A stretch of 23,774 nucleotides of DNA from the IMG/VR virus record IMGVR_UViG_3300027704_000158, positions 1 to 23,774 of that record; one strand, 5' to 3'. A program made the position numbers and the translations under genes. This DNA comes from a virus. The notes beneath the pieces were generated by a model, which was given only the letters and a program-made list of their open reading frames with translations, had not been told where the DNA came from and ran no database searches. Shown piece after piece: positions 1 to 15,047 of the stretch. Position 1 is the first letter of the stretch; the number at the start of each line of letters is the position of its first letter.

Positions 1-1190
1 CTGCACACAGAGCATTGATACTAAGACGGTCAATGCCAGAGCTTAGAGAGCTAATAGATAAAAGTAGAGAATTATACCCTAGAGCCTTTCCGGGCTGTAA
101 GTATAAAGAAGTTGAAAAACTTTGGAGCTTCCCTAGTGGAGCCAAAGTAGAGTTCGGCTTCTTAGAGCGGGATGCCGATGTGTACAGGTATCAAGGCCAA
201 GCCTATTCTTGGATTGGTTTTGACGAGATAACTCATTTACCTACTGAGTTTGGATGGAACTATCTCGCTTCCCGCCTAAGAACGACCGATCCTGAAATTG
301 AAACCTATATGCGCTGCACAGCCAACCCCGGTGGTGTAGGTGCAACTTGGGTAAAGAAAAGATATATTGATCCTCACCCGCCCAATGAAACCTTCACAGG
401 AACAGACAGACTATCCAGAAAGTTTATTCCTGCTAGGCTAGAAGACAATCCTTACTTAGCTTACGATGGTCGCTATGAAGAAATGCTCAAGGCATTACCG
501 CCTACTCAACGTAAACAACTACTTGAGGGTAACTGGGATGTCAACGAAGGAGCAGCATTTACTGAGTTTGATCTAGATGTTCATGTCATTACCCCCTTTG
601 CCATACCTATTTCTTGGGATCGGGTAAAAGGTATTGACTATGGCTATGCCTCTGAAAGCGCCTGTATATGGGCTACTGTTGATCCGACAGACGGGACTCT
701 AATTGTTTATAGAGAATTATACCGAAAAGGCTTGACAGGCGTGGATTTAGGCGCTATAATAACACAGATGGAACTAGAAGACCCTTATTCTGTTCAAGGA
801 GTACTAGACACAGCAGCATGGGCTAAGACAGGTACAACAGGCCCAACTGTCGGAGAGTCTTTAGTACGAGCAGGACACAAGCTGCGACCAGCAGATAAGA
901 ATAGAATACAGGGCAAAATACAAATCCACGAATATTTGAAAGTTCAGCAAAGCGGTAGGCCACGATTACAAATCCTAAATACATGCCCTAACCTGATACG
1001 CGAACTACAAAGTATTCCTCTGGATAAAATAAATCCAGAAGATGTAAATACACATGCGCCAGACCACGCTTATGATGCTCTGCGCTACTTAATAATGTCT
1101 AGGCCACGAATGCAAGATGCCTTTAGTAGAATAAGGAATCTCCATATGGAACAGGCTTACACTCCCGCTGATAGCGACTTTGGCTATTAG
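1..1190 (+). CDS. terL: Phage terminase large subunit (5' end missing)
   Basis: ATP-driven DNA-packaging motor with a nuclease that cuts the genome at head filling. The reading frame is open to the left edge, so the start and the Walker A motif lie outside the window; the TTG at 15 is only the first possible internal start. Numbering from that TTG, a Walker B-like WIGFDE is at 67-71 and a CTANPGG coupling motif at 101-107. The RNase H-like nuclease follows: GIDYG with Asp208, VLD with Asp265 and DHAYDALRY with Asp354, i.e. the three-acidic-residue set typical of TerL. The protein ends with a short polar tail, TPADSDFGY. Position before the portal fits a packaging module. Recognition rests on motif order and is strong; only the N-terminal ATPase part is unseen. 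Confidence 0.95.
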   Translation, partial: AHRALILRRSMPELRELIDKSRELYPRAFPGCKYKEVEKLWSFPSGAKVEFGFLERDADVYRYQGQAYSWIGFDEITHLPTEFGWNYLASRLRTTDPEIETYMRCTANPGGVGATWVKKRYIDPHPPNETFTGTDRLSRKFIPARLEDNPYLAYDGRYEEMLKALPPTQRKQLLEGNWDVNEGAAFTEFDLDVHVITPFAIPISWDRVKGIDYGYASESACIWATVDPTDGTLIVYRELYRKGLTGVDLGAIITQMELEDPYSVQGVLDTAAWAKTGTTGPTVGESLVRAGHKLRPADKNRIQGKIQIHEYLKVQQSGRPRLQILNTCPNLIRELQSIPLDKINPEDVNTHAPDHAYDALRYLIMSRPRMQDAFSRIRNLHMEQAYTPADSDFGY

Positions 1191-1784
1191 TAAAAAGGAA
1201 AAATTATGGCCTTCTCTCAAATTGCTAGAAAAGTTATTAGAGTAACACCTGTTCTCACAACTGCTCAATATGCAGATAATGATATATTATTTGGCACAAC
1301 AGAAATACCTTTAGCAGTTAGTGGAACTGGAGAATGTTCTAAGCTAGTATCTGCTATGATTGTATCTAAAGATAGTGAAGTGTTTGATGGAGAGTTGTTT
1401 TTTGCTCAAACAAATCAAGCTGTAGGTTCTGCAAACGCTGCAAGAAATGTATCTGATGCTGATTTTGCAGCTTGTAAAGTAACTGGTACTTTAACACTTG
1501 ATGGCTCTGCTGATGACTATGTTTATGGTGGCGGCAGAATTTCTAGGTTTGATGTAAATCTAGAAGGAGCTGGTGCAACTGACGGCGACCTTATAGCTAA
1601 ATCAAGATTCCCTATTTTGTTGCAAGCAGAACCTGATAGTAGAAGTGTTTTTTGTTTTATGTTTCTTTCAGGAACAGATGTAACGCCTACTTTAGCAGTA
1701 GGTGATATAGAGCTAATTCTCGGCATAGAGTATTAGTAGTACCCGCAGCACCCCGGCTAATAGCAATTTTGCCTATTAGTAAAA
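1161..1784 (+). repeat. Imperfect 35-bp direct repeat flanking the 1206-1736 gene
   Basis: Copy A (1161-1195) covers the last codons and stop of the terminase gene plus five bases. Copy B (1750-1784) lies after the next gene. They match at 29 of 35 positions. Read in the equivalent frame, copy B encodes TPANSNFAY-stop against TPADSDFGY-stop in the terminase. Both copies can fold into a short stem ending at the TAG (ATAGC with GCTAT in A; AATAG with CTATT in B). The repeat brackets exactly one gene, which suggests duplication or insertion at the end of the terminase gene; a conserved RNA hairpin is the alternative. Confidence 0.7.
1206..1736 (+). CDS. Unidentified virion-like protein, 176 aa
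   Basis: I do not recognise this family. The ATG at 1206 follows an AAGGA box at 1195-1199. The product is acidic, rich in Gly, Ala, Ser, Thr and Val, has no signal peptide or membrane segment, and its alternating hydrophobic pattern suggests beta structure, as in small capsid decoration or head-completion proteins. It sits between terminase and portal and is bracketed by the 35-bp repeat, which marks it as a possible later insertion. A structural role is inferred from location and composition only. Confidence 0.75.
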   Translation: MAFSQIARKVIRVTPVLTTAQYADNDILFGTTEIPLAVSGTGECSKLVSAMIVSKDSEVFDGELFFAQTNQAVGSANAARNVSDADFAACKVTGTLTLDGSADDYVYGGGRISRFDVNLEGAGATDGDLIAKSRFPILLQAEPDSRSVFCFMFLSGTDVTPTLAVGDIELILGIEY

Positions 1785-1796
1785 TAATTTTATAAT
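1769..1796 (+). promoter_or_regulatory. Candidate sigma70-like promoter
   Basis: TTGCCT at 1769-1774 and a perfect TATAAT at 1791-1796 are separated by 16 bp, in an AT-rich gap upstream of the gene starting at 1815. The -10 is consensus and the -35 matches 4 of 6. In an AT-rich genome such matches arise by chance, so this is tentative. It would drive the 1815-2405 gene and, if the terminator at 2429-2459 leaks, the portal operon. Confidence 0.35.
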
Positions 1797-1814
1797 TTAA
1801 ACGAGGAAACACCC

Positions 1815-2405
1815 ATGACAGCAGTAAATATTAGAGATACAGGTCGTAACTCAGCTAAGACAGTTGATGTTCGTGATCTTGCAGATAGGATGGAAACCAC
1901 CAATCCTGATCAAGAAGTAACAACTACTAATGAAGTATCAGTAACAACAGGAACTATTGCTGTTACAGATGATACCAATACCATCGTAACAATAGCCCAG
2001 CCTGCTGGAACTGTTCTTATGAATCTAATTGCATATGCCGCTGGTAATATTGTAACGGCTGGATCAAGCGGTAACGATCTAGACATCTCTATTGGAACAG
2101 CTTCGGCAGGCGCACAACTTCTTGCAGCTACAGCACTTCTAGATGACGGTGGCGCTGCTGTAACTTGGACAGCTAATGTTCCTCTTTATATTATTGAGAA
2201 CGCACACGGTAAAGCAGCTAATCAATTTGCTACTACAGGAGTTGGCCCTAAAGGTGGCCCAGCTACTACAGAGGCAGTTGTGATTGCAGGAGCTTTGTAT
2301 AGTGCAGCCGCTAGAAATATCTTCGTTACTCTGCGACCAATTGGAGCCGACCTAGCAACTGCTGCTACAACGGTTACTTATATTGCACAGTTCCAAGAAC
2401 TTTAA
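1815..2405 (+). CDS. Unidentified virion-like protein, 196 aa
   Basis: Not recognised with certainty. The ATG at 1815 follows GAGGA at 1803-1807. The first ~45 residues are polar and charged, and the rest is Ala/Thr/Val/Gly-rich with alternating hydrophobics, suggesting a beta-sandwich. No membrane segment or catalytic motif is visible. Size, composition and position beside the portal suit a capsid decoration or minor head protein. It has its own candidate promoter upstream and a terminator downstream, so it could be expressed as a separate, abundant unit. Confidence 0.78.
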   Translation: MTAVNIRDTGRNSAKTVDVRDLADRMETTNPDQEVTTTNEVSVTTGTIAVTDDTNTIVTIAQPAGTVLMNLIAYAAGNIVTAGSSGNDLDISIGTASAGAQLLAATALLDDGGAAVTWTANVPLYIIENAHGKAANQFATTGVGPKGGPATTEAVVIAGALYSAAARNIFVTLRPIGADLATAATTVTYIAQFQEL

Positions 2406-2428
2406 TTTAGTCTAAGTATTAATTATGG

Positions 2429-2459
2429 ACGCTGCCGTGTGGTGGCGTTTATGATTTTT
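2429..2459 (+). terminator. Candidate intrinsic terminator upstream of the portal gene
   Basis: ACGCTGCC at 2429-2436 pairs with GGTGGCGT at 2441-2448 (eight pairs, two of them G-T) around a GTGT loop, followed by TTATGATTTTT. It is the only GC-rich patch in this gap. The T run is interrupted, so termination is probably partial, and read-through would feed the portal gene. Confidence 0.55.
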
Positions 2460-2470
2460 AAGGTTTAAAT

Positions 2471-4660
2471 ATGGCAGAAAAAGAAAACAGTTTAATACAG
2501 AACGCTGATGGTCTTTATTTTCAATCAGAAGAAAATGAAGAAGGTATGTCTTTAAATCTTGAAGATGACCTAAACAATAAACTAGCGGGTCTTATAGAAG
2601 ACAGATTTTCAACTGCCGAAAGAGCAAGAGATGCAGATGAAGAAAGGTGGATGACTGCCTATCACAACTATCGTGGTCTATACGCTAAGAATGTTAAATT
2701 TAGAGAATCTGAAAAATCTAGAGTCTTTGTAAAAGTAACTAAAACAAAAGTTTTAGCAGCCTTTGGTCAGTTAGTAGATGTTATATTTGGAGGCAATAAA
2801 TTTCCTATTGGTGTATCTGAAACTAGAGTACCAGAAGGCTCACCAGAAATTGCTCACTTAGATATAAATAATCCTGTACCCGGAATTGAAACCAGCCAAG
2901 AAGCGGCTGTAGAAAAAGAAATTGAAAGTCCATTTGATGTAGGGTTTGATGGTGATGGAAGAGTATTAAAAGCTGGAGCTACTTACAGCTCTAGTAAATT
3001 TGAAGGCCCACTAGATGTACAAGCAGCAGACTCCTTAATAGAAGGCCCGTCAGCTAATCCTCAAGCTCCTGAAATGAAACCTGCTCAAAAAGCAGCAAGG
3101 AGAATGGAAAAACTTATACATGATCAAATAGAAGAATCTAATGGTGCTAGTGAAATAAGAAATTCTTTATTTGAAGCAGCTCTCTTTGGAACAGGTATTG
3201 TAAAAGGCCCATTTAATTTTAATAAAACTTTAAATAGATGGACTGAAGAAGATGGAGAACGTGTATACAATCCAATAGAGGTGCGTGTACCGCGTATTGA
3301 ATTTGTAAGCATTTGGGATTTCTTTCCAGACCCTAACGCTACAAATATAAATGAATGTGAATTTGTTATACATAGACATAAATTAAATCGTTCACAATTT
3401 AGAAGCCTATCAAAGCTGCCTTATTTTAAAAAAGATCAAATACGACAGTGTTTGGAAATGGGGCCAAACTATGTAGAGAAAGATTATGAAGCTGAATTAA
3501 AAGATGATGACAGTGCATATGAAAATAGTTCAGGTAAATATGAAGTACTAGAATATTGGGGCATCATGGATGCTGAGTATGCTAGAGAAGTAGGTATGGA
3601 AATAGATGATAGTGTAGATGATTTGGACGAACTACAAATCAACGCTTGGATTTCAAATGGTAAAGTACTAAGAGCTGTAGTTAATCCTTTTGCTCCGCAT
3701 AGAATCCCTTATCATGCTTTCTCTTATGAAAAAAATCCTTACAGTTTTTTTGGTATTGGTGTTGCTGAGAACATGGATGACTCTCAGAAGATTATGAACG
3801 GTCACGCTAGAATGGCTATAGACAACTTAGCTCTATCGGGTTCACTAGTCTTTGACGTAGACGAGACTGCCCTTGTTGGTGGTCAAACAATGGAAATATT
3901 TCCGGGTAAAGTATTCCGAAGACAAGCAGGAATGCCGGGAACAGCCATCAATGGCTTAAAGTTTCCTAATACATCTACAGAAAACATGATGATGTTTGAT
4001 AAGTTCAGGCAGCTTGCAGACGAACAAACAGGCATACCAAGCTACTCACACGGACAAACTGGCGTTCAAAGCATGACAAGAACAGCTTCAGGTATGTCTA
4101 TGTTACTGGGAGCAGCATCATTGAATGTAAAGACAGTCATTAAAAATCTTGATGACTTTCTTTTAAAACCTCTAGGTGAAGCATACTTCCAATGGAACAT
4201 GCAATTCTTAGAAAGCAAGTTAGGAGTAGAAGGCGATTTAGAAGTTAAGGCTACTGGCACAGCAAGCCTGATGCAAAAAGAAGTAAGAAGCCAACGGCTA
4301 ACTACTTTCCTTCAGAGCATTCAGAATCCCGCTATTGCTCCCTTTGTTAAAATCAACAAACTTATTGGGGAGCTTGCGTACTCGCTTGATCTTGATCCTG
4401 ATGAGATACTTAACGATCCAGAAGAAGCCGCTATTATGGCTCAAATTATAGGAATGCAAAATAATGCTGGACAAACAAATGGCGAAGCGTCTATCAATCC
4501 TAACCAGCAACAAGGAAGTATGGGAGGCATTCAAGGAACACCTCAACAGCCTCCGAACCTTGGAGTTACGGGTACTGGTGACGGCAACATCGGAACCGGA
4601 GCTGTACCGCAGTCAGGGGAAGATCAATTCTCTGGAACGCCTAGAGGGGCTGAAGGATGA
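2471..4660 (+). CDS. Portal (head-tail connector) protein, 729 aa
   Basis: Forms the ring at the capsid vertex through which DNA enters and leaves. The ATG at 2471 follows AAGG at 2460-2463. Residues 40-110 contain a helical, Trp/Tyr-rich segment (ERWMTAYHNYRGLY near 58-71). An acidic, low-complexity stretch at about 120-200 looks like an insertion. The core at 200-660 includes FFGIGVAENMDDSQK and a Met/Thr-rich DEQTGIP...MTRTASGM segment typical of the portals of marine short-tailed phages. The last ~55 residues are Gly/Gln/Pro-rich and probably disordered. Its length, about that of P22-type portals, and its place between terminase and scaffold/capsid support the call. Its stop overlaps the start of the next small gene by ATGA. 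Confidence 0.9.
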   Translation: MAEKENSLIQNADGLYFQSEENEEGMSLNLEDDLNNKLAGLIEDRFSTAERARDADEERWMTAYHNYRGLYAKNVKFRESEKSRVFVKVTKTKVLAAFGQLVDVIFGGNKFPIGVSETRVPEGSPEIAHLDINNPVPGIETSQEAAVEKEIESPFDVGFDGDGRVLKAGATYSSSKFEGPLDVQAADSLIEGPSANPQAPEMKPAQKAARRMEKLIHDQIEESNGASEIRNSLFEAALFGTGIVKGPFNFNKTLNRWTEEDGERVYNPIEVRVPRIEFVSIWDFFPDPNATNINECEFVIHRHKLNRSQFRSLSKLPYFKKDQIRQCLEMGPNYVEKDYEAELKDDDSAYENSSGKYEVLEYWGIMDAEYAREVGMEIDDSVDDLDELQINAWISNGKVLRAVVNPFAPHRIPYHAFSYEKNPYSFFGIGVAENMDDSQKIMNGHARMAIDNLALSGSLVFDVDETALVGGQTMEIFPGKVFRRQAGMPGTAINGLKFPNTSTENMMMFDKFRQLADEQTGIPSYSHGQTGVQSMTRTASGMSMLLGAASLNVKTVIKNLDDFLLKPLGEAYFQWNMQFLESKLGVEGDLEVKATGTASLMQKEVRSQRLTTFLQSIQNPAIAPFVKINKLIGELAYSLDLDPDEILNDPEEAAIMAQIIGMQNNAGQTNGEASINPNQQQGSMGGIQGTPQQPPNLGVTGTGDGNIGTGAVPQSGEDQFSGTPRGAEG

Positions 4661-4800
4661 AGTTGAAGAAGCTAAAGGAAGAAGTACCTAAGTATGAAGG
4701 TAAGTTCTGGTCTTACCCCCGAAGAAAATTTGTGGGTTATGAACAGTGGATAAAGGAGGCAGATGATAGTGGCTACAAAGAAAAAATCCAAAGTAAATGA
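4657..4800 (+). CDS. Small basic protein, 47 aa
   Basis: Short ORF beginning at an ATG that overlaps the portal stop (ATGA, 4657-4660), as in translational coupling. It starts MKLKKLKEEVPKYEGKFW and is rich in Lys, Glu and aromatics. It ends inside the next gene, overlapping it by about 32 bp in another frame. Unknown function. The coupling and the otherwise empty gap between portal and next gene argue that it is real; its size keeps confidence moderate. Confidence 0.5.
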   Translation: MKLKKLKEEVPKYEGKFWSYPRRKFVGYEQWIKEADDSGYKEKIQSK

Positions 4801-4951
4801 GGCAGGTAACTATACTCAGCCTACTATGCGTAAAAGACTTTTTAATAAAATAAAATCAGGTAGTTCAGGAGGAGACGCTGGGCAATGGTCTGCTCGTAAA
4901 GCACAGATGTTAGCTAAACAATATAAAGCCGCAGGTGGTGGCTACAAATAA
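4769..4951 (+). CDS. Small basic virion-associated-type protein, 60 aa
   Basis: Lys-rich protein beginning (M)ATKKKSKVNEAGNY and ending GQWSARKAQMLAKQYKAAGG plus GYK. Small proteins of this pattern are frequent near portal and capsid genes of marine phages; function unknown. GTG at 4769 is preferred because AGGAGG at 4754-4759 lies 9 bases upstream; the alternative ATG at 4763 is only 3 bases from it. The Lys content suggests nucleic-acid contact or an internal virion role, but that is inference. Confidence 0.75.
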   Translation: MATKKKSKVNEAGNYTQPTMRKRLFNKIKSGSSGGDAGQWSARKAQMLAKQYKAAGGGYK

Positions 4952-4964
4952 AGAGGAATTAATT

Positions 4965-5123
4965 ATGCCAATGGGAAAAGGAACATACGGATCAAAAGTT
5001 GGAAGACCAGCAGAAAAGAAGAAAAAAATGATGGGTGGTAAAATGCCTAAGAAAAAAATGATGGACGGCGGTAAAATGGGTATGAAGTATTCAATGGGTG
5101 GTACAGTTACTAAACCTAATTAA
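4965..5123 (+). CDS. Small Lys/Met/Gly-rich protein with repeated GG-K-M motifs, 52 aa
   Basis: The ATG at 4965 follows AGAGGA at 4952-4957. The protein is low-complexity: MMGGKM at 25-30 region, then MMDGGKM and SMGGTV, each preceded by lysines. A longer in-frame start at 4935 would overlap the previous gene and lacks its own ribosome binding site. The same GG-[KS]-M motif recurs in the 335-aa protein downstream, which suggests a shared partner or processing signal. Function unknown. Confidence 0.75.
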   Translation: MPMGKGTYGSKVGRPAEKKKKMMGGKMPKKKMMDGGKMGMKYSMGGTVTKPN

Positions 5124-5125
5124 TC

Positions 5126-5371
5126 ATGGCTTTAAAAAAATCACAGAAAAGTTTAAAGGCTTGGACAAAGCAAAAGTGGACAACCAAGTCTGGTAAGCCT
5201 AGTGCTAAAACAGGCGAAAGGTATTTGCCAGAAAAAGCAATAGCTTCTCTATCTAATAGTGAGTATGCAGCCACAACTAAAAAGAAAAGAGAAGATACTA
5301 AAAAAGGTAAGCAACATTCTAAGCAACCTAAAAAAGTAGCTAAGAAAACTAAACCTTACAGGAATGCATAA
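5126..5371 (+). CDS. Small highly basic protein, 81 aa
   Basis: Starts two bases after the previous stop. It reads MALKKSQKSLKAWTKQKW followed by a TGERYLPEKAI segment and a very Lys-rich tail. I recognise the pattern as a small conserved protein found in many marine phages and some other large viruses, without an established function. No membrane segment is present. The high charge suggests binding to packaged DNA or RNA; this is inference. No clear ribosome binding site, so it is probably translated by coupling. Confidence 0.8.
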   Translation: MALKKSQKSLKAWTKQKWTTKSGKPSAKTGERYLPEKAIASLSNSEYAATTKKKREDTKKGKQHSKQPKKVAKKTKPYRNA

Positions 5372-5372
5372 T

Positions 5373-5537
5373 ATGAAAGGCGTTAAACATTACAAAAGAA
5401 ATGGAACTTTGTTTACAGGTAATTCACACAAGATGGCTGACGGTACTTTGCACACTGGAAAAAGTCATACTAAAACTAGTGTAAAGTTATTTCATTTAAA
5501 AGACTTGTCTGCTACGGCAAAAAAGAAAGCTAAATAA
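5373..5537 (+). CDS. Small basic His/Lys-rich protein, 54 aa
   Basis: Begins at the ATG one base after the preceding TAA and ends at TAA 5535-5537. It contains two similar segments, NGTLFTGNSHKM and DGTLHTGKSHTK, a short internal duplication of a G-T-L-[FH]-T-G-[NK]-S-H pattern, then LFHLKDLSATAKKKAK. It fills what would otherwise be a 180-base gap, in the same style as its neighbours. Function unknown; likely a virion accessory protein. Confidence 0.7.
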   Translation: MKGVKHYKRNGTLFTGNSHKMADGTLHTGKSHTKTSVKLFHLKDLSATAKKKAK

Positions 5538-5550
5538 AAGGTAGTAAATA

Positions 5551-6558
5551 ATGGATAAACCAAATCGCGAAGAAAAAATGATGGGTGGTTCTATGCTATC
5601 TACTCCTGAAAGAGAAATGTATGGAAAAGGATCGTTAGTAAAAAAACTTATAGCAATTCTTAAACCACTTAAAGCAGGCCAAAAACAAAGTCAAGCTGGT
5701 ACTAGAGGGCAAGCAGTCCATAATAAAGATGTAGCAACAGGAATTGTTGTTGCTGGGGGTTTAGGTTATCTTGCTAATTCAGATGAGGGTATGGCACTTT
5801 TAGAAGCTGCTGATGCTGGCGAAATAGATGCTGAAATAAAAGAACCGGATGAAAGAATTAACCCTAACGATTTTCCTACTTATCAAAAAAATACTGATTC
5901 TGCTTCTGCTTTTCAAAATGCTTTTGGAGAAGCTAGAGAAGCAAGAGCAGATACTTTTGAATTTGAAGGTAGAACATATTTAGCAGATTTACCTGTTACT
6001 AAAAAAGCTGAAGGTGGCTCTATGAAAAGAGATGCTTATCAAGAAGGTGGCTCTATGTTAGTACCTCCTGAAATGACAGATATGCCAGTAGATACATACC
6101 CAAATATACCGCCAGAAGAAATGGCAGCAGTAGAAGCTTCACAACTTCCAGATGCAGAAGTGGAAGATAATTATATAGATTTTGTAATGACTGAAGCTTT
6201 AGAACAAGAAGAGCAATCTTATTTAATGAATGCTTTAGAGTCTGATCCACAACTTAGTATGATATTTGATAAGGTTGTTGATACAGCAGCAGAATTTTCG
6301 GGAGACGGGCCAGTTGACGGCCCCGGAGATGGTACTTCAGATTCAATACCTGCTAGATTATCTGCAGGTGAATTTGTAGTCACTAAAAAAGCCACTGATC
6401 AAATAGGTGCGGGGTCGCTTCAAAGTATGATGGACGAAGCTGAACGTGCCTATGATGGTGGTTTAATGAAGAAAAACAAAGCAGATGAAGAAGATAATAT
6501 AAAAGAATCAATGTTATCTTCTAATCAAATGCCGAGTTTAAATATAAGTAAACGATAA
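5551..6558 (+). CDS. Acidic virion-associated protein with GG-S-M motifs, 335 aa
   Basis: The ATG at 5551 follows AAAGG at 5538-5542. The N-terminus carries MMGGSM, as in the 52-aa neighbour; two more motifs, AEGGSM and QEGGSM, occur near residues 153-168, and DGGLM near 306. A short Gly/Ala-rich hydrophobic patch near 65-78 (GIVVAGGLGYLA) could be a weak membrane or packing segment. Residues ~255-290 contain PGDGTSDSIPARLSAGEFVV, a pattern I associate with various marine phage structural proteins. The middle is strongly acidic. It lies just before the scaffold. A minor head or scaffold-associated role is plausible but not shown. Confidence 0.75.
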   Translation: MDKPNREEKMMGGSMLSTPEREMYGKGSLVKKLIAILKPLKAGQKQSQAGTRGQAVHNKDVATGIVVAGGLGYLANSDEGMALLEAADAGEIDAEIKEPDERINPNDFPTYQKNTDSASAFQNAFGEAREARADTFEFEGRTYLADLPVTKKAEGGSMKRDAYQEGGSMLVPPEMTDMPVDTYPNIPPEEMAAVEASQLPDAEVEDNYIDFVMTEALEQEEQSYLMNALESDPQLSMIFDKVVDTAAEFSGDGPVDGPGDGTSDSIPARLSAGEFVVTKKATDQIGAGSLQSMMDEAERAYDGGLMKKNKADEEDNIKESMLSSNQMPSLNISKR

Positions 6559-11121: not shown

Positions 11122-13920
11122 ATGGCTACAAGTTATGTAAGACAAAGCAGTTTCGCAGATGGCGATACAATTACTGCTGCGTTATTTAATGAAGAATTTA
11201 ACCGTCTCCTAACTGCTTTTTCATATGCGTCTAGTGGAACTACAGGTCATAGGCACGATGGCACATCAGGAGAAGGCGGTAATATTCACACTATAGGTGA
11301 TCAAGATTTTTTAAATAAAATATTGACCACAGGTAATACTTGGGAGTTCTATGTAGAAGTTTCTAGTGCCGCTGCAAAACAAATGGTCTTGCAAGATGGC
11401 GCACTAGTACCTAACGCTGACAGCGATTTAGACTTAGGAACAAGTAGTAAATATTTTAAAAATGCCTTTATAGATAGTATTACAACTACAGGTAATGTTG
11501 GGGTAGGTGGAAATCTTACTGTTACAGGAACAACTACTTTCAATGGCGGTACAATTACACTAGGTGATGCCGCTGCTGATAATGTAGTTTTTGGAGCTAA
11601 TGTTGATTCACATATTATACCTGACGATGACGATACTTTTGACTTAGGTTCTGCAAGCCAACAATGGCGTAATGTATATGTTGACGGTACAGTGTTTGCA
11701 GATGTTTTAGATTTAGCAGGTACAGCTATTACTTCTACGGCTGCTGAACTTAACATCCTAGATGGCGTAACAAGCACCGCAGCAGAACTTAATATTCTTG
11801 ATGGTGTCACAAGTACCGCAGCAGAACTTAATATCTTAGATGGCGTAACAAGCACCGCAGCAGAACTTAATATTCTTGATGGTGTAACTAGTACCGCAGC
11901 AGAACTTAATATTTTAGATGGTGTTACAAGCACAGCAGCGGAGCTTAACGCTTTAGATGGTATTACAGCAGTTGTAGGAGAGCTAAACGCTCTTGATATT
12001 GGTTCAACAGCAATAGGAACCGCCGTAGCTTCTAAAGCAGTTATCTTAGACGCTAACAAAGATTATACTGGAATAAGAAATCTTACTATAGCAGGCGATC
12101 TTACTATTAGTGGTGACGATCTAGTAATGGCAACAAACACAGCAGGCCATATTTTAGTAGCAGATGGCACTAATTTTAATCCTGTTGCTGTAGGAGATTT
12201 AACAGAAATTAGTACTGCTGCGGATGATGATGTTTTGTTAGCAGTTGATACATCTGGTGGCGGTCTTAAAAGAGTTACTAGATCAGCTATCATTGCAGGT
12301 ACTGGTTCAAGTGGAGACTTATCTAATGTAGTAGAAGATACTAGTCCTCAATTGGGCGGTAACTTAGACATGAACGGTGCAGATATTGTTACTACTTCAA
12401 ATGCAACTCTTGATCTAGCTCCTAATGGAACAGGTACAGTTGTAGTTAGAGGAAATACTAACTCAGGTGCAGTAGTATTTAATTGTGAAAGTAATAGTCA
12501 TGGTCAAAAAGTATTTGGGCAACCACACTCTGCAAGTGTTACCAACACTTTAATGTTACCCGCAGGTGCTAATTCAACATTACTATCTCGTGTATCTGTA
12601 GACACGTTGACAAATAAAACTTTAACATCTCCTAAAATTAATGAAAATGTAGCAGTTACTTCAACAGCTACCGAAATTAATCTTCTTGATGGTGTTACAA
12701 GTACTACTGCTGAACTTAACATTCTTGACGGTGTAACAAGTACTGCTGCCGAATTAAATATTCTTGATGGTGTTACAAGCACCGCAGCAGAACTTAATAT
12801 TCTTGACGGTGTTACAAGTACCGCAGCAGAACTTAATGCTTTAGACGGAATTACAGCAGTTGTAGGAGAACTCAACGCTCTTGATATTGGCTCAACTGCA
12901 GTAGGAACGGCAGTAGCTTCTAAAGCAGTTATTTTAGATTCTAATAAAGACTACACAGGTATACGCAACTTTACTATTTCTGGCGAACTAGATGCAGCTA
13001 CCTTAGACATTAGTGGAGCAATAGACGTTGCAGGTAATTCTGTTTTAGCTTCTGTTGATGTTACAGGTGTAGCTACAGCCGCTACCTTTGAACCAGATGG
13101 TGATACTTCTGCAGGTGATAATGCTGCAATAGGTTACGCTGCTGCTGACGGTCTTGTTCTTACAGGGCAGGGTAGTACAGGCGATATAACTATTAGAAAC
13201 GATGCTGATGCATTAGTTGCTCATGTACCAACAGGTACAAATGGTGTTACTTTTGCAGGTGATGTTATAGTTCCTGATGGTGATTTAATATTGGGTAGCA
13301 CTGCTGTTACAAGTACGGCTGCTGAGTTAAATATTCTTGATGGTGTCACAGCAACAGCAACAGAGTTAAATTTAATAGATGGTGTTACAAGCACTACAGC
13401 AGAGTTAAATATTCTTGATGGTGTTACAAGCACTGCAGCAGAGTTAAATATCCTTGATGGTGTTACAAGCACTGCAACAGAACTTAATCTTCTTGATGGT
13501 GTGACAAGCACTACAGCAGAACTTAATATTCTTGATGGAGTTACTAGTACCGCAGCAGAGCTTAATATTCTTGATGGGCTTACTGATGTAGGTTTTAAAA
13601 ACATACCTCAGAATAGTAAAAGTGCTGCTTATACGTTAGTTCTTGCAGACTCCGGTAAACATATATTTCACCCCGTAGGTGATAATAACGCTAGAACTTT
13701 TACTATACCAGCAAACGGTTCAGTTGCTTACCCTGTTGGAACAGCTATTACATTTATTAACATGGCAGTAGCTGATGTGACTATTGCAATTACAAGTGAT
13801 ACAATGTATTTATCTTCTGCTGGAACAACTGGTTCACGTACACTAGCCCAGTTTGGTTCCGCAACAGCAGTAAAAATAATAGCAACTTCATGGTTAATCT
13901 CTGGGAGCGGTTTAACATGA
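11122..13920 (+). CDS. Tail fibre protein with 13-residue repeats, 932 aa
   Basis: Likely receptor-binding or spacer fibre. The ATG at 11122 follows AGGAG at 11108-11112. N-terminal ~75 residues (SFADGDTITAALFNEEFNRL, then GHRHDG) resemble virion-anchoring parts of phage fibres. Next come beta-rich segments (GNLTVTG, FDLGSASQQWRNVYVDG) and three blocks of a T-S-T-A-A-E-L-N-I-L-D-G-V repeat at residues ~204-293, 513-589 and 730-820. The C-terminal ~105 residues (SGKHIFHP, RTFTIPANGSV, TSWLISGSGLT) form a domain common at the ends of marine phage fibres. The last codon overlaps the next gene by ATGA. Frame is intact through all repeats. Confidence 0.9.
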   Translation: MATSYVRQSSFADGDTITAALFNEEFNRLLTAFSYASSGTTGHRHDGTSGEGGNIHTIGDQDFLNKILTTGNTWEFYVEVSSAAAKQMVLQDGALVPNADSDLDLGTSSKYFKNAFIDSITTTGNVGVGGNLTVTGTTTFNGGTITLGDAAADNVVFGANVDSHIIPDDDDTFDLGSASQQWRNVYVDGTVFADVLDLAGTAITSTAAELNILDGVTSTAAELNILDGVTSTAAELNILDGVTSTAAELNILDGVTSTAAELNILDGVTSTAAELNALDGITAVVGELNALDIGSTAIGTAVASKAVILDANKDYTGIRNLTIAGDLTISGDDLVMATNTAGHILVADGTNFNPVAVGDLTEISTAADDDVLLAVDTSGGGLKRVTRSAIIAGTGSSGDLSNVVEDTSPQLGGNLDMNGADIVTTSNATLDLAPNGTGTVVVRGNTNSGAVVFNCESNSHGQKVFGQPHSASVTNTLMLPAGANSTLLSRVSVDTLTNKTLTSPKINENVAVTSTATEINLLDGVTSTTAELNILDGVTSTAAELNILDGVTSTAAELNILDGVTSTAAELNALDGITAVVGELNALDIGSTAVGTAVASKAVILDSNKDYTGIRNFTISGELDAATLDISGAIDVAGNSVLASVDVTGVATAATFEPDGDTSAGDNAAIGYAAADGLVLTGQGSTGDITIRNDADALVAHVPTGTNGVTFAGDVIVPDGDLILGSTAVTSTAAELNILDGVTATATELNLIDGVTSTTAELNILDGVTSTAAELNILDGVTSTATELNLLDGVTSTTAELNILDGVTSTAAELNILDGLTDVGFKNIPQNSKSAAYTLVLADSGKHIFHPVGDNNARTFTIPANGSVAYPVGTAITFINMAVADVTIAITSDTMYLSSAGTTGSRTLAQFGSATAVKIIATSWLISGSGLT
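11731..12000 (+). repeat. Fibre repeat block 1 (39-bp units)
   Basis: Six in-frame 39-bp units (11731-11964) plus a degenerate 36-bp unit (11965-12000). Five units encode TSTAAELNILDGV, the sixth NALDGI. Units 2 and 4 are almost identical and alternate with units 3 and 5, hinting at a 78-bp higher-order duplication. Confidence 0.95.
11926..12978 (+). repeat. 165-bp duplicated fibre module (two copies)
   Basis: Copy 1 is 11926-12090 and copy 2 is 12814-12978. Their 55-residue products differ at only three positions (I/V, A/S, L/F), while the DNA carries many synonymous differences. Each copy ends a block of 13-residue repeats, so the unit 'repeat block + module' was duplicated within the fibre, and not recently. 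Confidence 0.88.
12658..12888 (+). repeat. Fibre repeat block 2 (39-bp units)
   Basis: Five 39-bp units (12658-12852) plus the degenerate 36-bp unit (12853-12888). Unit order is TATEINLLDGV, TTAELNILDGV, two TAAELNILDGV and a NALDGI unit. Confidence 0.95.
13309..13581 (+). repeat. Fibre repeat block 3 (39-bp units)
   Basis: Seven consecutive 39-bp units ending in ILDGL. A-A-E, T-A-E and A-T-E variants recur in a partly periodic order (units 3-4 and 6-7 match in type), again suggesting multi-unit duplication. Confidence 0.95.
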
Positions 13921-15047
13921 GTGGTATTTTACAATCACTTTTTGCAAACATGCGTTCGTTTGGCGCAGCTTCAATTGAGGGCCAATTATGGAGCTGGGGG
14001 CCGGGTACTGATGGAAGATCAGGTATTGGGTCTACTGCTAGTAAATCATCTCCAGTACAAGTAGGATCGGATGAAGATTGGCTTGAAGGAGCAGGTGGGG
14101 TATATCATGGAATATTTCCAAATAGTCTTGGTAAAATGTATTCTTTTGGTAGAAATGCAAATCGTCAGTTAGGACTAGGGCATAATAATCATAAATCAAA
14201 CCCAACACAAATAGGATCATTAACTACGTGGTTACAAGTTACAGCGGGTTATTACTTTTCAGCGGCTATTAAAACTGATGGTACGCTCTGGGCATGGGGA
14301 CAAAACGATAATGGGCAAGTAGGCAATGGTACTACCACTCAGAAATCTGTTCCAGTACAAATAGGTTCAGCAACTAATTGGGCGCAAATGCAAGCAGGTG
14401 GATTCCACAATGCTGCTATTAATACTGATGGGCAACTTTACACTTGGGGTGTTGCTGGGGGTCTTGGAAATGGCGATGGCGAAGGCTCAGATAGAACTGC
14501 TCCGGCAATAGTAGGAGATTTAACTAATTGGGCGCAAGTATCAGGAGGTGGCGCCAGCACTGATGCTTTTTGTATAGCTGTTAAAACTGATAATACTTTA
14601 TGGGCATGGGGATTTGGTGCTAATGGAAAATTAGGTACTGGTAATACTACTAATAGGTTTTCTCCAGTACAAGTAGGCTCTCTTACTAATTGGCTTAGAG
14701 TATCATCAAGTAACGCACATACGATTGCTCTTAAAACTGATGGTACGCTCTGGGCATGGGGGGCCAACAGTTCCTATCGTTTAGGTGATGGAAGTAATAC
14801 TAATAGATCATCTCCAGTACAAATAGGTTCAGCAACTACGTGGGAAAAGATAGCAGCATATGCGTTTAATAGTCAAGCTATTGAAAGCGGTAAAATGTAT
14901 GCGTGGGGATATGGAGGTTTGGGAGGTAATGGACAAGGCAACACTTCAGATCAAAGCGCACCAGTACAAGTAGGCTCACTTACTACTTGGACAGGAATAG
15001 TAAACAACAGTTATGGTTACTCATTACATGGGATAAAAAGTAGTTAA
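13917..15047 (+). CDS. RCC1-like seven-bladed beta-propeller protein, 376 aa
   Basis: Seven repeats of the RCC1 type, each with [LM]-[WY]-[ASTF]-[WF]-G followed by a Gly-rich turn: LWSWG, MYSFG, LWAWG, LYTWG, LWAWG, LWAWG, MYAWG. Between them are SPVQVGS-like loops and TDG turns, giving a full propeller with almost nothing else. No signal peptide or membrane segment. ATG 13917 overlaps the fibre stop (ATGA) and has GGGAG at 13903-13907; an in-frame ATG at 13890 lies further inside the fibre gene. In bacteria and phages such propellers occur in surface and adhesion proteins. After a fibre gene, a receptor-binding tip or fibre accessory is the best guess. Domain call secure, role inferred. Confidence 0.85.
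   Translation: MSGILQSLFANMRSFGAASIEGQLWSWGPGTDGRSGIGSTASKSSPVQVGSDEDWLEGAGGVYHGIFPNSLGKMYSFGRNANRQLGLGHNNHKSNPTQIGSLTTWLQVTAGYYFSAAIKTDGTLWAWGQNDNGQVGNGTTTQKSVPVQIGSATNWAQMQAGGFHNAAINTDGQLYTWGVAGGLGNGDGEGSDRTAPAIVGDLTNWAQVSGGGASTDAFCIAVKTDNTLWAWGFGANGKLGTGNTTNRFSPVQVGSLTNWLRVSSSNAHTIALKTDGTLWAWGANSSYRLGDGSNTNRSSPVQIGSATTWEKIAAYAFNSQAIESGKMYAWGYGGLGGNGQGNTSDQSAPVQVGSLTTWTGIVNNSYGYSLHGIKSS
14269..14761 (+). repeat. Pair of perfect 31-bp repeats in the propeller gene
   Basis: Identical 31-bp sequences at 14269-14299 and 14731-14761 encode KTDGTLWAWG in blades 3 and 6. Blade 5 encodes a near-identical peptide with different codons, so the DNA identity is not forced by the protein and points to recent gene conversion or duplication. 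Confidence 0.85.

Follow-up and report, generated by a model that had tools for sequence, protein, structure and literature searches.

A Repeated Terminase Tail in the TerL–Portal Slot of an HMO-2011-Type Phage and Its Possible Second Use as a Leader Hairpin

Introduction

Phage late operons take up accessory genes by insertion (morons), as part of the general mosaicism of phage genomes, and translational leader hairpins are known for phage structural genes. Gene gain in these operons is frequent, and insertion at a place where the neighbouring genes share sequence is seldom visible.

The HMO-2011-type phages are characterized in PMC9038755 by a DNA polymerase with a partial DnaJ domain. The window analysed here, a stand-alone virus record of 23,774 nucleotides, shares the TerL–portal–capsid order of the HMO-2011-type marine podophages. 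Its terminase large subunit (TerL) is 47–49% identical to those of HMO-2011 and CRP-1 and 69–73% identical to those of HTVC103P, HTVC104P and HTVC115P, and this related TerL lies in one module with portal and major head proteins identified by their PHROGs. HTVC115P and HTVC103P carry three small ORFs in the TerL–portal slot, unlike the window, where the following features are found:

3–1190, + strand: TerL, its 5´ end cut by the window (phrog_979, E 9.4e-44; 73% identity to the TerL of Pelagibacter phage HTVC115P)
1160–1195, + strand: copy 1 of the repeat, comprising the last nine TerL codons, the stop and 5 nt; stem arms at 1167–1175 and 1183–1191
1191–1205, + strand: gap between TerL and gene X, holding the AGGA-type ribosome site of X, as read from the sequence
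1206–1736, + strand: gene X, 176 aa, an orphan and inserted gene with no PHROG, Pfam or NCBIfam match
1749–1784, + strand: copy 2, a non-coding homologue of the TerL tail; stem arms at 1756–1763 and 1773–1780
1769–1796, + strand: sigma-70-like promoter match, TTGCCT-16-TATAAT, the regional count of such matches being within chance
1780–1814, + strand: AT-rich conserved leader 5´ of gene D, with a CGAGG ribosome site at 1802–1806
1815–2405, + strand: gene D, 196 aa, a predicted beta-sandwich virion protein (structure model), possibly a capsid cement or decoration protein
2471–4660, + strand: portal protein (phrog_332, E 5.5e-83; phrog_1216, E 6.9e-38)

The Repeat at the TerL End

A repeat search of the window paired positions 1160–1195 with 1749–1784, two segments of 36 nt that are identical at 30/36 sites (83%) with a spacing of 589. 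Copy 1 encodes the TerL C-terminus, TPADSDFGY and stop, and copy 2, translated in the old TerL frame, gives TPANSNFAY and stop; each copy folds into a stem. An earlier sequence-only reading had described a terminase tail that reappears after the gene at 1206–1736, still reads TPANSNFAY-stop and makes a small stem in both copies. All of this is borne out, except that the extent given there (35 bp, 29/35 matches) is better stated as 36 nt from position 1160.

That two AT-rich intergenic ends resemble each other by chance is scarcely credible. Without gaps, the TerL 3´ end and the X–D intergenic region share at best 30 matches over a 36-mer, against a maximum of 23 and a mean of 17.7 in 300 dinucleotide shuffles of that region, which exclude this explanation, and the match is common to relatives and structured there. 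Across the whole window, 39 diagonals reach a 36-mer match of at least 28; apart from the 1160/1749 pair, all of them fall within repeats at 11.7–13.7 kb or 14.0–15.0 kb. These are dense internal direct repeats (28–36/36 matches) within the stretches 11122–13920 and 13890–15047, whose proteins are probably repetitive and fibre-like.

Gene X and the TerL–Portal Slot

In HMO-2011/HTVC115P-like phages, the interval between TerL and portal is a slot that virion genes enter and leave. In the relatives it holds nothing, D, X followed by D, X alone or other small ORFs; among 137 non-redundant junctions, 76 have D without X, 7 have both, 2 have X without D and 52 have neither. The slot opens with a different short ORF, beginning ATGAAAA(AA)AGA and distinct from X and D, in L007, L008, L013, L017, L025, L046, L048 and L049.

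Gene X was found at 11 loci among viral contigs, with no relative in the genome contigs searched. A search of 50,697 phage records gave no match to X or D, and the relatives of both come from IMG/VR contigs. No relatedness between X and D could be detected, and the structure model of X (pLDDT 37.8) was not confident and was not used. As is typical of accessory genes, X is absent from the same place in close relatives (L375, L001, L004). No terminator-like site was found 3´ of X, and promoter-like matches are at chance level; with no promoter and terminator of its own detected, X is not filed as a moron in the strict sense. A target-site duplication of the transposon style, with a short exact repeat, was rejected, as X matches no transposase or integrase family and is found at other places that have no such repeats, for example in L090 and L091 and 5´ of TerL in L089. 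In L089 the X relative (549–1076) lies 5´ of the TerL gene, not after it, directly before another ORF whose product we take to resemble the small terminase subunit.

Gene D as a Probable Shell Protein

The model of gene D (pLDDT 70.5) is a beta-sandwich. Its nearest solved folds include the phage-capsid chains 7eel_H, 7dn2_1, 7dou_4 and 8h89_J among unrelated sandwiches, with a Foldseek match to 7eel_H (E 3.1e-3) and fold alignments to 7dn2_1 (Z 7.8, rmsd 3.6 over 117 residues) and 8h89_J (Z 6.8). The 7dou_4 entry is titled cement protein, and the other three are, on our reading of their entries, presumably cement subunits as well. Phage capsid cement proteins are trimers with a beta-sandwich fold that attach to the capsid. 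The predicted fold of D aligns with the cement proteins of KHP30/KHP40, Pam1 and GP4, with Z below 8, tied with unrelated beta-sandwiches such as furin, and with no sequence similarity between D and the cement proteins. The GP4 capsid is the subject of PMC9698820. From the model, D would weakly resemble capsid cement proteins and is probably a shell protein.

In L112, L114, L119, L124, L153 and L158 the C-terminal part of D is joined to quite different N-terminal segments, which gives D the appearance of a modular virion protein whose anchors can be exchanged.

The Leader of Gene D

Copy 2 is not just the mark of an insertion. It makes up the first half of the leader of gene D, which consists of a hairpin, an AT-rich spacer and the CGAGG ribosome site. 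In the window, TAAAATAATTTTATAATTTAAACGAGG stands 3´ of copy 2, ahead of the D start, and a covariance model of the leader matches positions 1743–1806 with 81.3 bits. The leader core is present at 43/83 D-bearing junctions, at frequencies that are not population estimates since many leader-bearing loci were fetched by leader patterns; the D genes of the other 40/83 have no leader. It was found at 0/54 junctions without D, and at 4/9 X junctions, being absent from 5/9. These counts indicate that the leader goes with D and not with X. Of 80 loci retrieved through TerL alone, five (L001, L004, L005, L057 and L072) carry the leader according to the covariance model, each time ahead of a D gene. 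The model was run on 95, 100, 97 and 32 sources; L193 is in alignment A2 and was left out of alignment A5 and of the model, and L086–L088 were left out of both.

Two leader states occur. In one, the TerL tail abuts the leader (L001, L004, L169, L245 and others); in the other, the leader lies 3´ of an intact, different TerL stop and has a non-coding hairpin (L072, L057 and L362 types). Second copies are also found where X is missing, at 17 junctions with a leader 3´ of an intact TerL, one of them (L193/L304) having the leader but no stem. The second copy is therefore not specific to X, and 5/9 X junctions have none, which does not support the sequence-only reading where it traced the second copy to the entry of the gene, with duplication of its target.

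A TerL tree was built from 138 TerL bodies, each trimmed of its final 60 nt, using only TerLs of full window length above 78% identity, so that L086 and L090 lie outside it. The tree requires at least nine leader-state changes, versus a shuffled mean of 36; the leader is thus clustered yet repeatedly gained or lost. Two TerL clades carry the L057-type leader with its D, and the node that joins them covers 110/138 leaves (node support 0.74), which shows that leader and D move together.

The 65-nt leader of the window is 85–88% identical to the single-copy leaders of L301, L001, L169 and L262, 79% to that of L362, 55–60% to those of L235/L240/L085 and about 40% to leaderless D loci. Past its first 150 nt, the D body is 76–86% identical to the D alleles of L009, L104, L235, L240, L085 and L096, and these alleles belong to phages with other leaders or none; the D of L375 reaches only 50–70%. 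Versus L086, nucleotide identity is 88% for X and 86% for D, and 73% for TerL and 72% for the portal. These contrasts indicate that X and D are foreign, and that the leader belongs to the resident type or comes from one closely related to it. Leader, X and D have thus moved among TerL backgrounds.

A literature search, in sources available in part, found nothing on this leader. A genome-wide phage promoter or repeated element was rejected, since a scan of the window that allowed up to three mismatches gave a single occurrence of the core AGTAAAATAATTTTATAA. In L292, L307, L330 and L331 the core TAGTAAAATAAT is also found at a different gene end, shortly 5´ of a GGAGG site. L381, L383, L384, L386, L388, L391 and other contigs carry an unrelated element, CGGCTAATAG-loop-CTATTAG followed by ATATAAATAACTT, with a varied loop; its recurrence makes it possibly another conserved hairpin.

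Single-Copy Relatives and Opposite Coding Signatures

The sequence-only reading had predicted that relatives without the gene at 1206–1736 would carry a single tail, and such relatives exist. Aligned to L001 by BLASTN, the window yields two blocks (3–1195 and 1750–4700 in the window) whose L001 counterparts, 1997–3189 and 3155–6107, overlap on a single tail (3155–3189). In the TerL tree, the five window-group sequences form a clade (support 1.00) with L375 as its sister (support 1.00). L375 has the TerL tail, the leader and gene D directly, in single copy and without X; it is 89.5% identical to the window over TerL, 86.6% over the 433 nt of portal available and 69% over 370 nt of D. The absence of X from both single-copy relatives agrees with the earlier proposal of an extra gene at the terminase end. 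Before-state (L375), after-state (window group) and parallel cases are thus all available.

Copy 1 differs from the 30-nt tail of L375 at 3/30 sites, all synonymous, with TPADSDFGY kept; copy 2 also differs at 3/30 sites, all of them protein-changing in the old frame, and the two copies differ from each other by six changes. Three synonymous changes in the coding copy versus three protein-changing ones in the non-coding copy make a clean contrast, the outcome expected if an L375-like tail was doubled and constraint was then divided between the copies. On these signatures, an L375-like single copy would have been doubled, copy 1 staying code and copy 2 turning non-coding.

The tail peptide ending in FGY is common to TerLs with and without the leader, so its coding sense is native to TerL, and the non-coding hairpins of the window and L362 types align with the TerL tail through the loop. 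We infer that the leader hairpins probably derive from the TerL tail and not the reverse, the short-loop types leaving some doubt.

Conservation and Possible Function of the Hairpin

The full 7-bp tail stem is present in 20/20 TerL tails that abut the leader and in 4/4 window-group tails; it is present in 0/91 tails without leader and in 0/17 with the leader further 3´. It has been lost from L002, L003 and L006, which are nested in the single-copy clade and have no D. In a model-fitted alignment, which has 33 distinct rows and leans towards structure, 99.2% of stem cells are paired versus 2–49% with the partner slid. The covariation sought in the stem was found in part: one pair of this alignment changed on both sides, from A-U to C-G, in three rows, probably as one inherited event, and at three pairs a change on one side leaves the pairing intact, while alignment A5 contains no such double change. 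Among the non-coding leaders, 14 match the pattern C[CT][CT]CG before the stem, a list that accordingly leaves out L193 and L086–L088; in these 14 the arms stay paired and the loop ranges from 2 to 10 nt. With such variable arm spacing, a strict operator for a dimeric protein is unlikely.

In L193 the spacer is kept and the stem absent, and in L086–L088 the stem is degenerate (covariance model matches of 23–24 bits); the stem is therefore not essential for D. Relative to shuffled sequence, the folding energy of copy 2 in the window is ordinary (z -0.52), and that of the L072, L362, L363 and L377 types is more favourable (z about -2.3 to -2.8). Pairing of CTTCG with CGAGG is possible in 11/11 non-coding leader rows other than the window group; the three rows of that group and all 15 coding rows instead contain CCCCG, able to pair with CGAGG at 4/5 positions. 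Masking of the ribosome site through such pairing would be only an option. No intrinsic terminator (GC-rich stem and T run) was called at 1160–1195 or 1749–1784, and the two Rfam 15 matches within 1000–2500 are far below the gathering score, with none overlapping the repeats. A functional RNA element, the second option of the sequence-only reading, is probably also right in part, copy 2 belonging to the D leader, and the two options would join in a duplicated segment with two jobs.

Proposed History and Alternative Explanations

The account that we consider moderately probable, read from the sequence, is that a segment of about 30 nt had two jobs, that it was doubled when X entered between them, that the copies then split the jobs and that the hairpin sets the output of D. 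In the single-copy state, the last nine TerL codons would double as the hairpin of the D leader, so that one segment would both end TerL and form a stem-loop about 35 nt 5´ of the D start. In the window lineage, recombination would have brought X in between the two functions, TerL end and leader, of one segment, which would therefore have had to be present twice. The doubling would thus coincide with the entry of X. Copy 1 would have been kept under TerL coding constraint and copy 2 as the D leader hairpin, free of that constraint, and a foreign allele would also have taken the place of the D body. Together, the hairpin and the AT-rich spacer would set the translation or stability of the D message, adjusting how much D is made from a message shared with TerL; for example, uncoupling from TerL could allow D, as a high-copy shell protein, to be produced in surplus.

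Copy 2 might instead have come from outside, with X, leader and D (or leader and D) imported from another phage whose D leader hairpin derived from a TerL tail, and landing beside a TerL with a similar hairpin tail. This we regard as unlikely, if by no means negligible: the X–D order recurs in L086–L088, leader and D are found on TerL backgrounds as distant as those of the L057 type, and copy 2 shares GCTAATAGCAATT with L362. Copy 2 is also similarly close to the tails of L262 (26/30), L362 (27/30) and the resident-type L301/L375 (26/30), so an import could have occurred. However, the leader of the window is nearer to the single-copy class than to L362 or to the L085-type X–D loci (57%), and copy 2 is just three changes from the L375 tail.

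The role of the stem is also disputable. Leader and D might have been copied with whatever TerL tail lay 5´, the stem persisting by common descent as an inert leftover; its loss from L193 and L086–L088, where the leader spacer is kept or recognisable, would fit, as would the stem pairs, most of which are either invariant or changed on just one side. We nevertheless find this rather doubtful, because the full stem is kept in every abutting tail over two distant TerL clades and missing from the three nested leaderless members, and because the arms stay paired around changing loops in the pattern-fitting leaders, L193 and L086–L088 being outside the pattern. It is quite improbable that the element is a promoter for D with an incidental stem: TTGCCT-16-TATAAT matches the consensus at 10/12 positions, but four such matches occur in the region versus 3.7 expected by shuffling, and the -10-like hexamer reads AATAAC in leaders of the L072 type and is lacking from L305 and L339. 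Returning to the two-job segment, its leader would predict the way in which an abundant group of marine phages may control how much of a capsid-shell protein is made.

Comparison with Known Systems

As a tentative generalisation, DNA of dual use, coding for the TerL C-terminus and forming an RNA hairpin that controls the next virion gene, might serve as a portable joint of expression and homology that travels with the gene and is doubled where another gene intervenes, the copies then splitting the jobs. Like morons and other accessory insertions, the locus has one extra gene between two conserved genes, missing at that place in close relatives; unlike morons, X has no detected promoter and terminator pair, and the flanking repeat would be a dual-use leader instead of a neutral joint. 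Like translational leader hairpins, a stem-loop and an AT-rich stretch stand 5´ of the ribosome site of a probable high-copy virion gene; unlike them, the element matches no Rfam family, and in the single-copy state its stem is coded by the end of the upstream gene.
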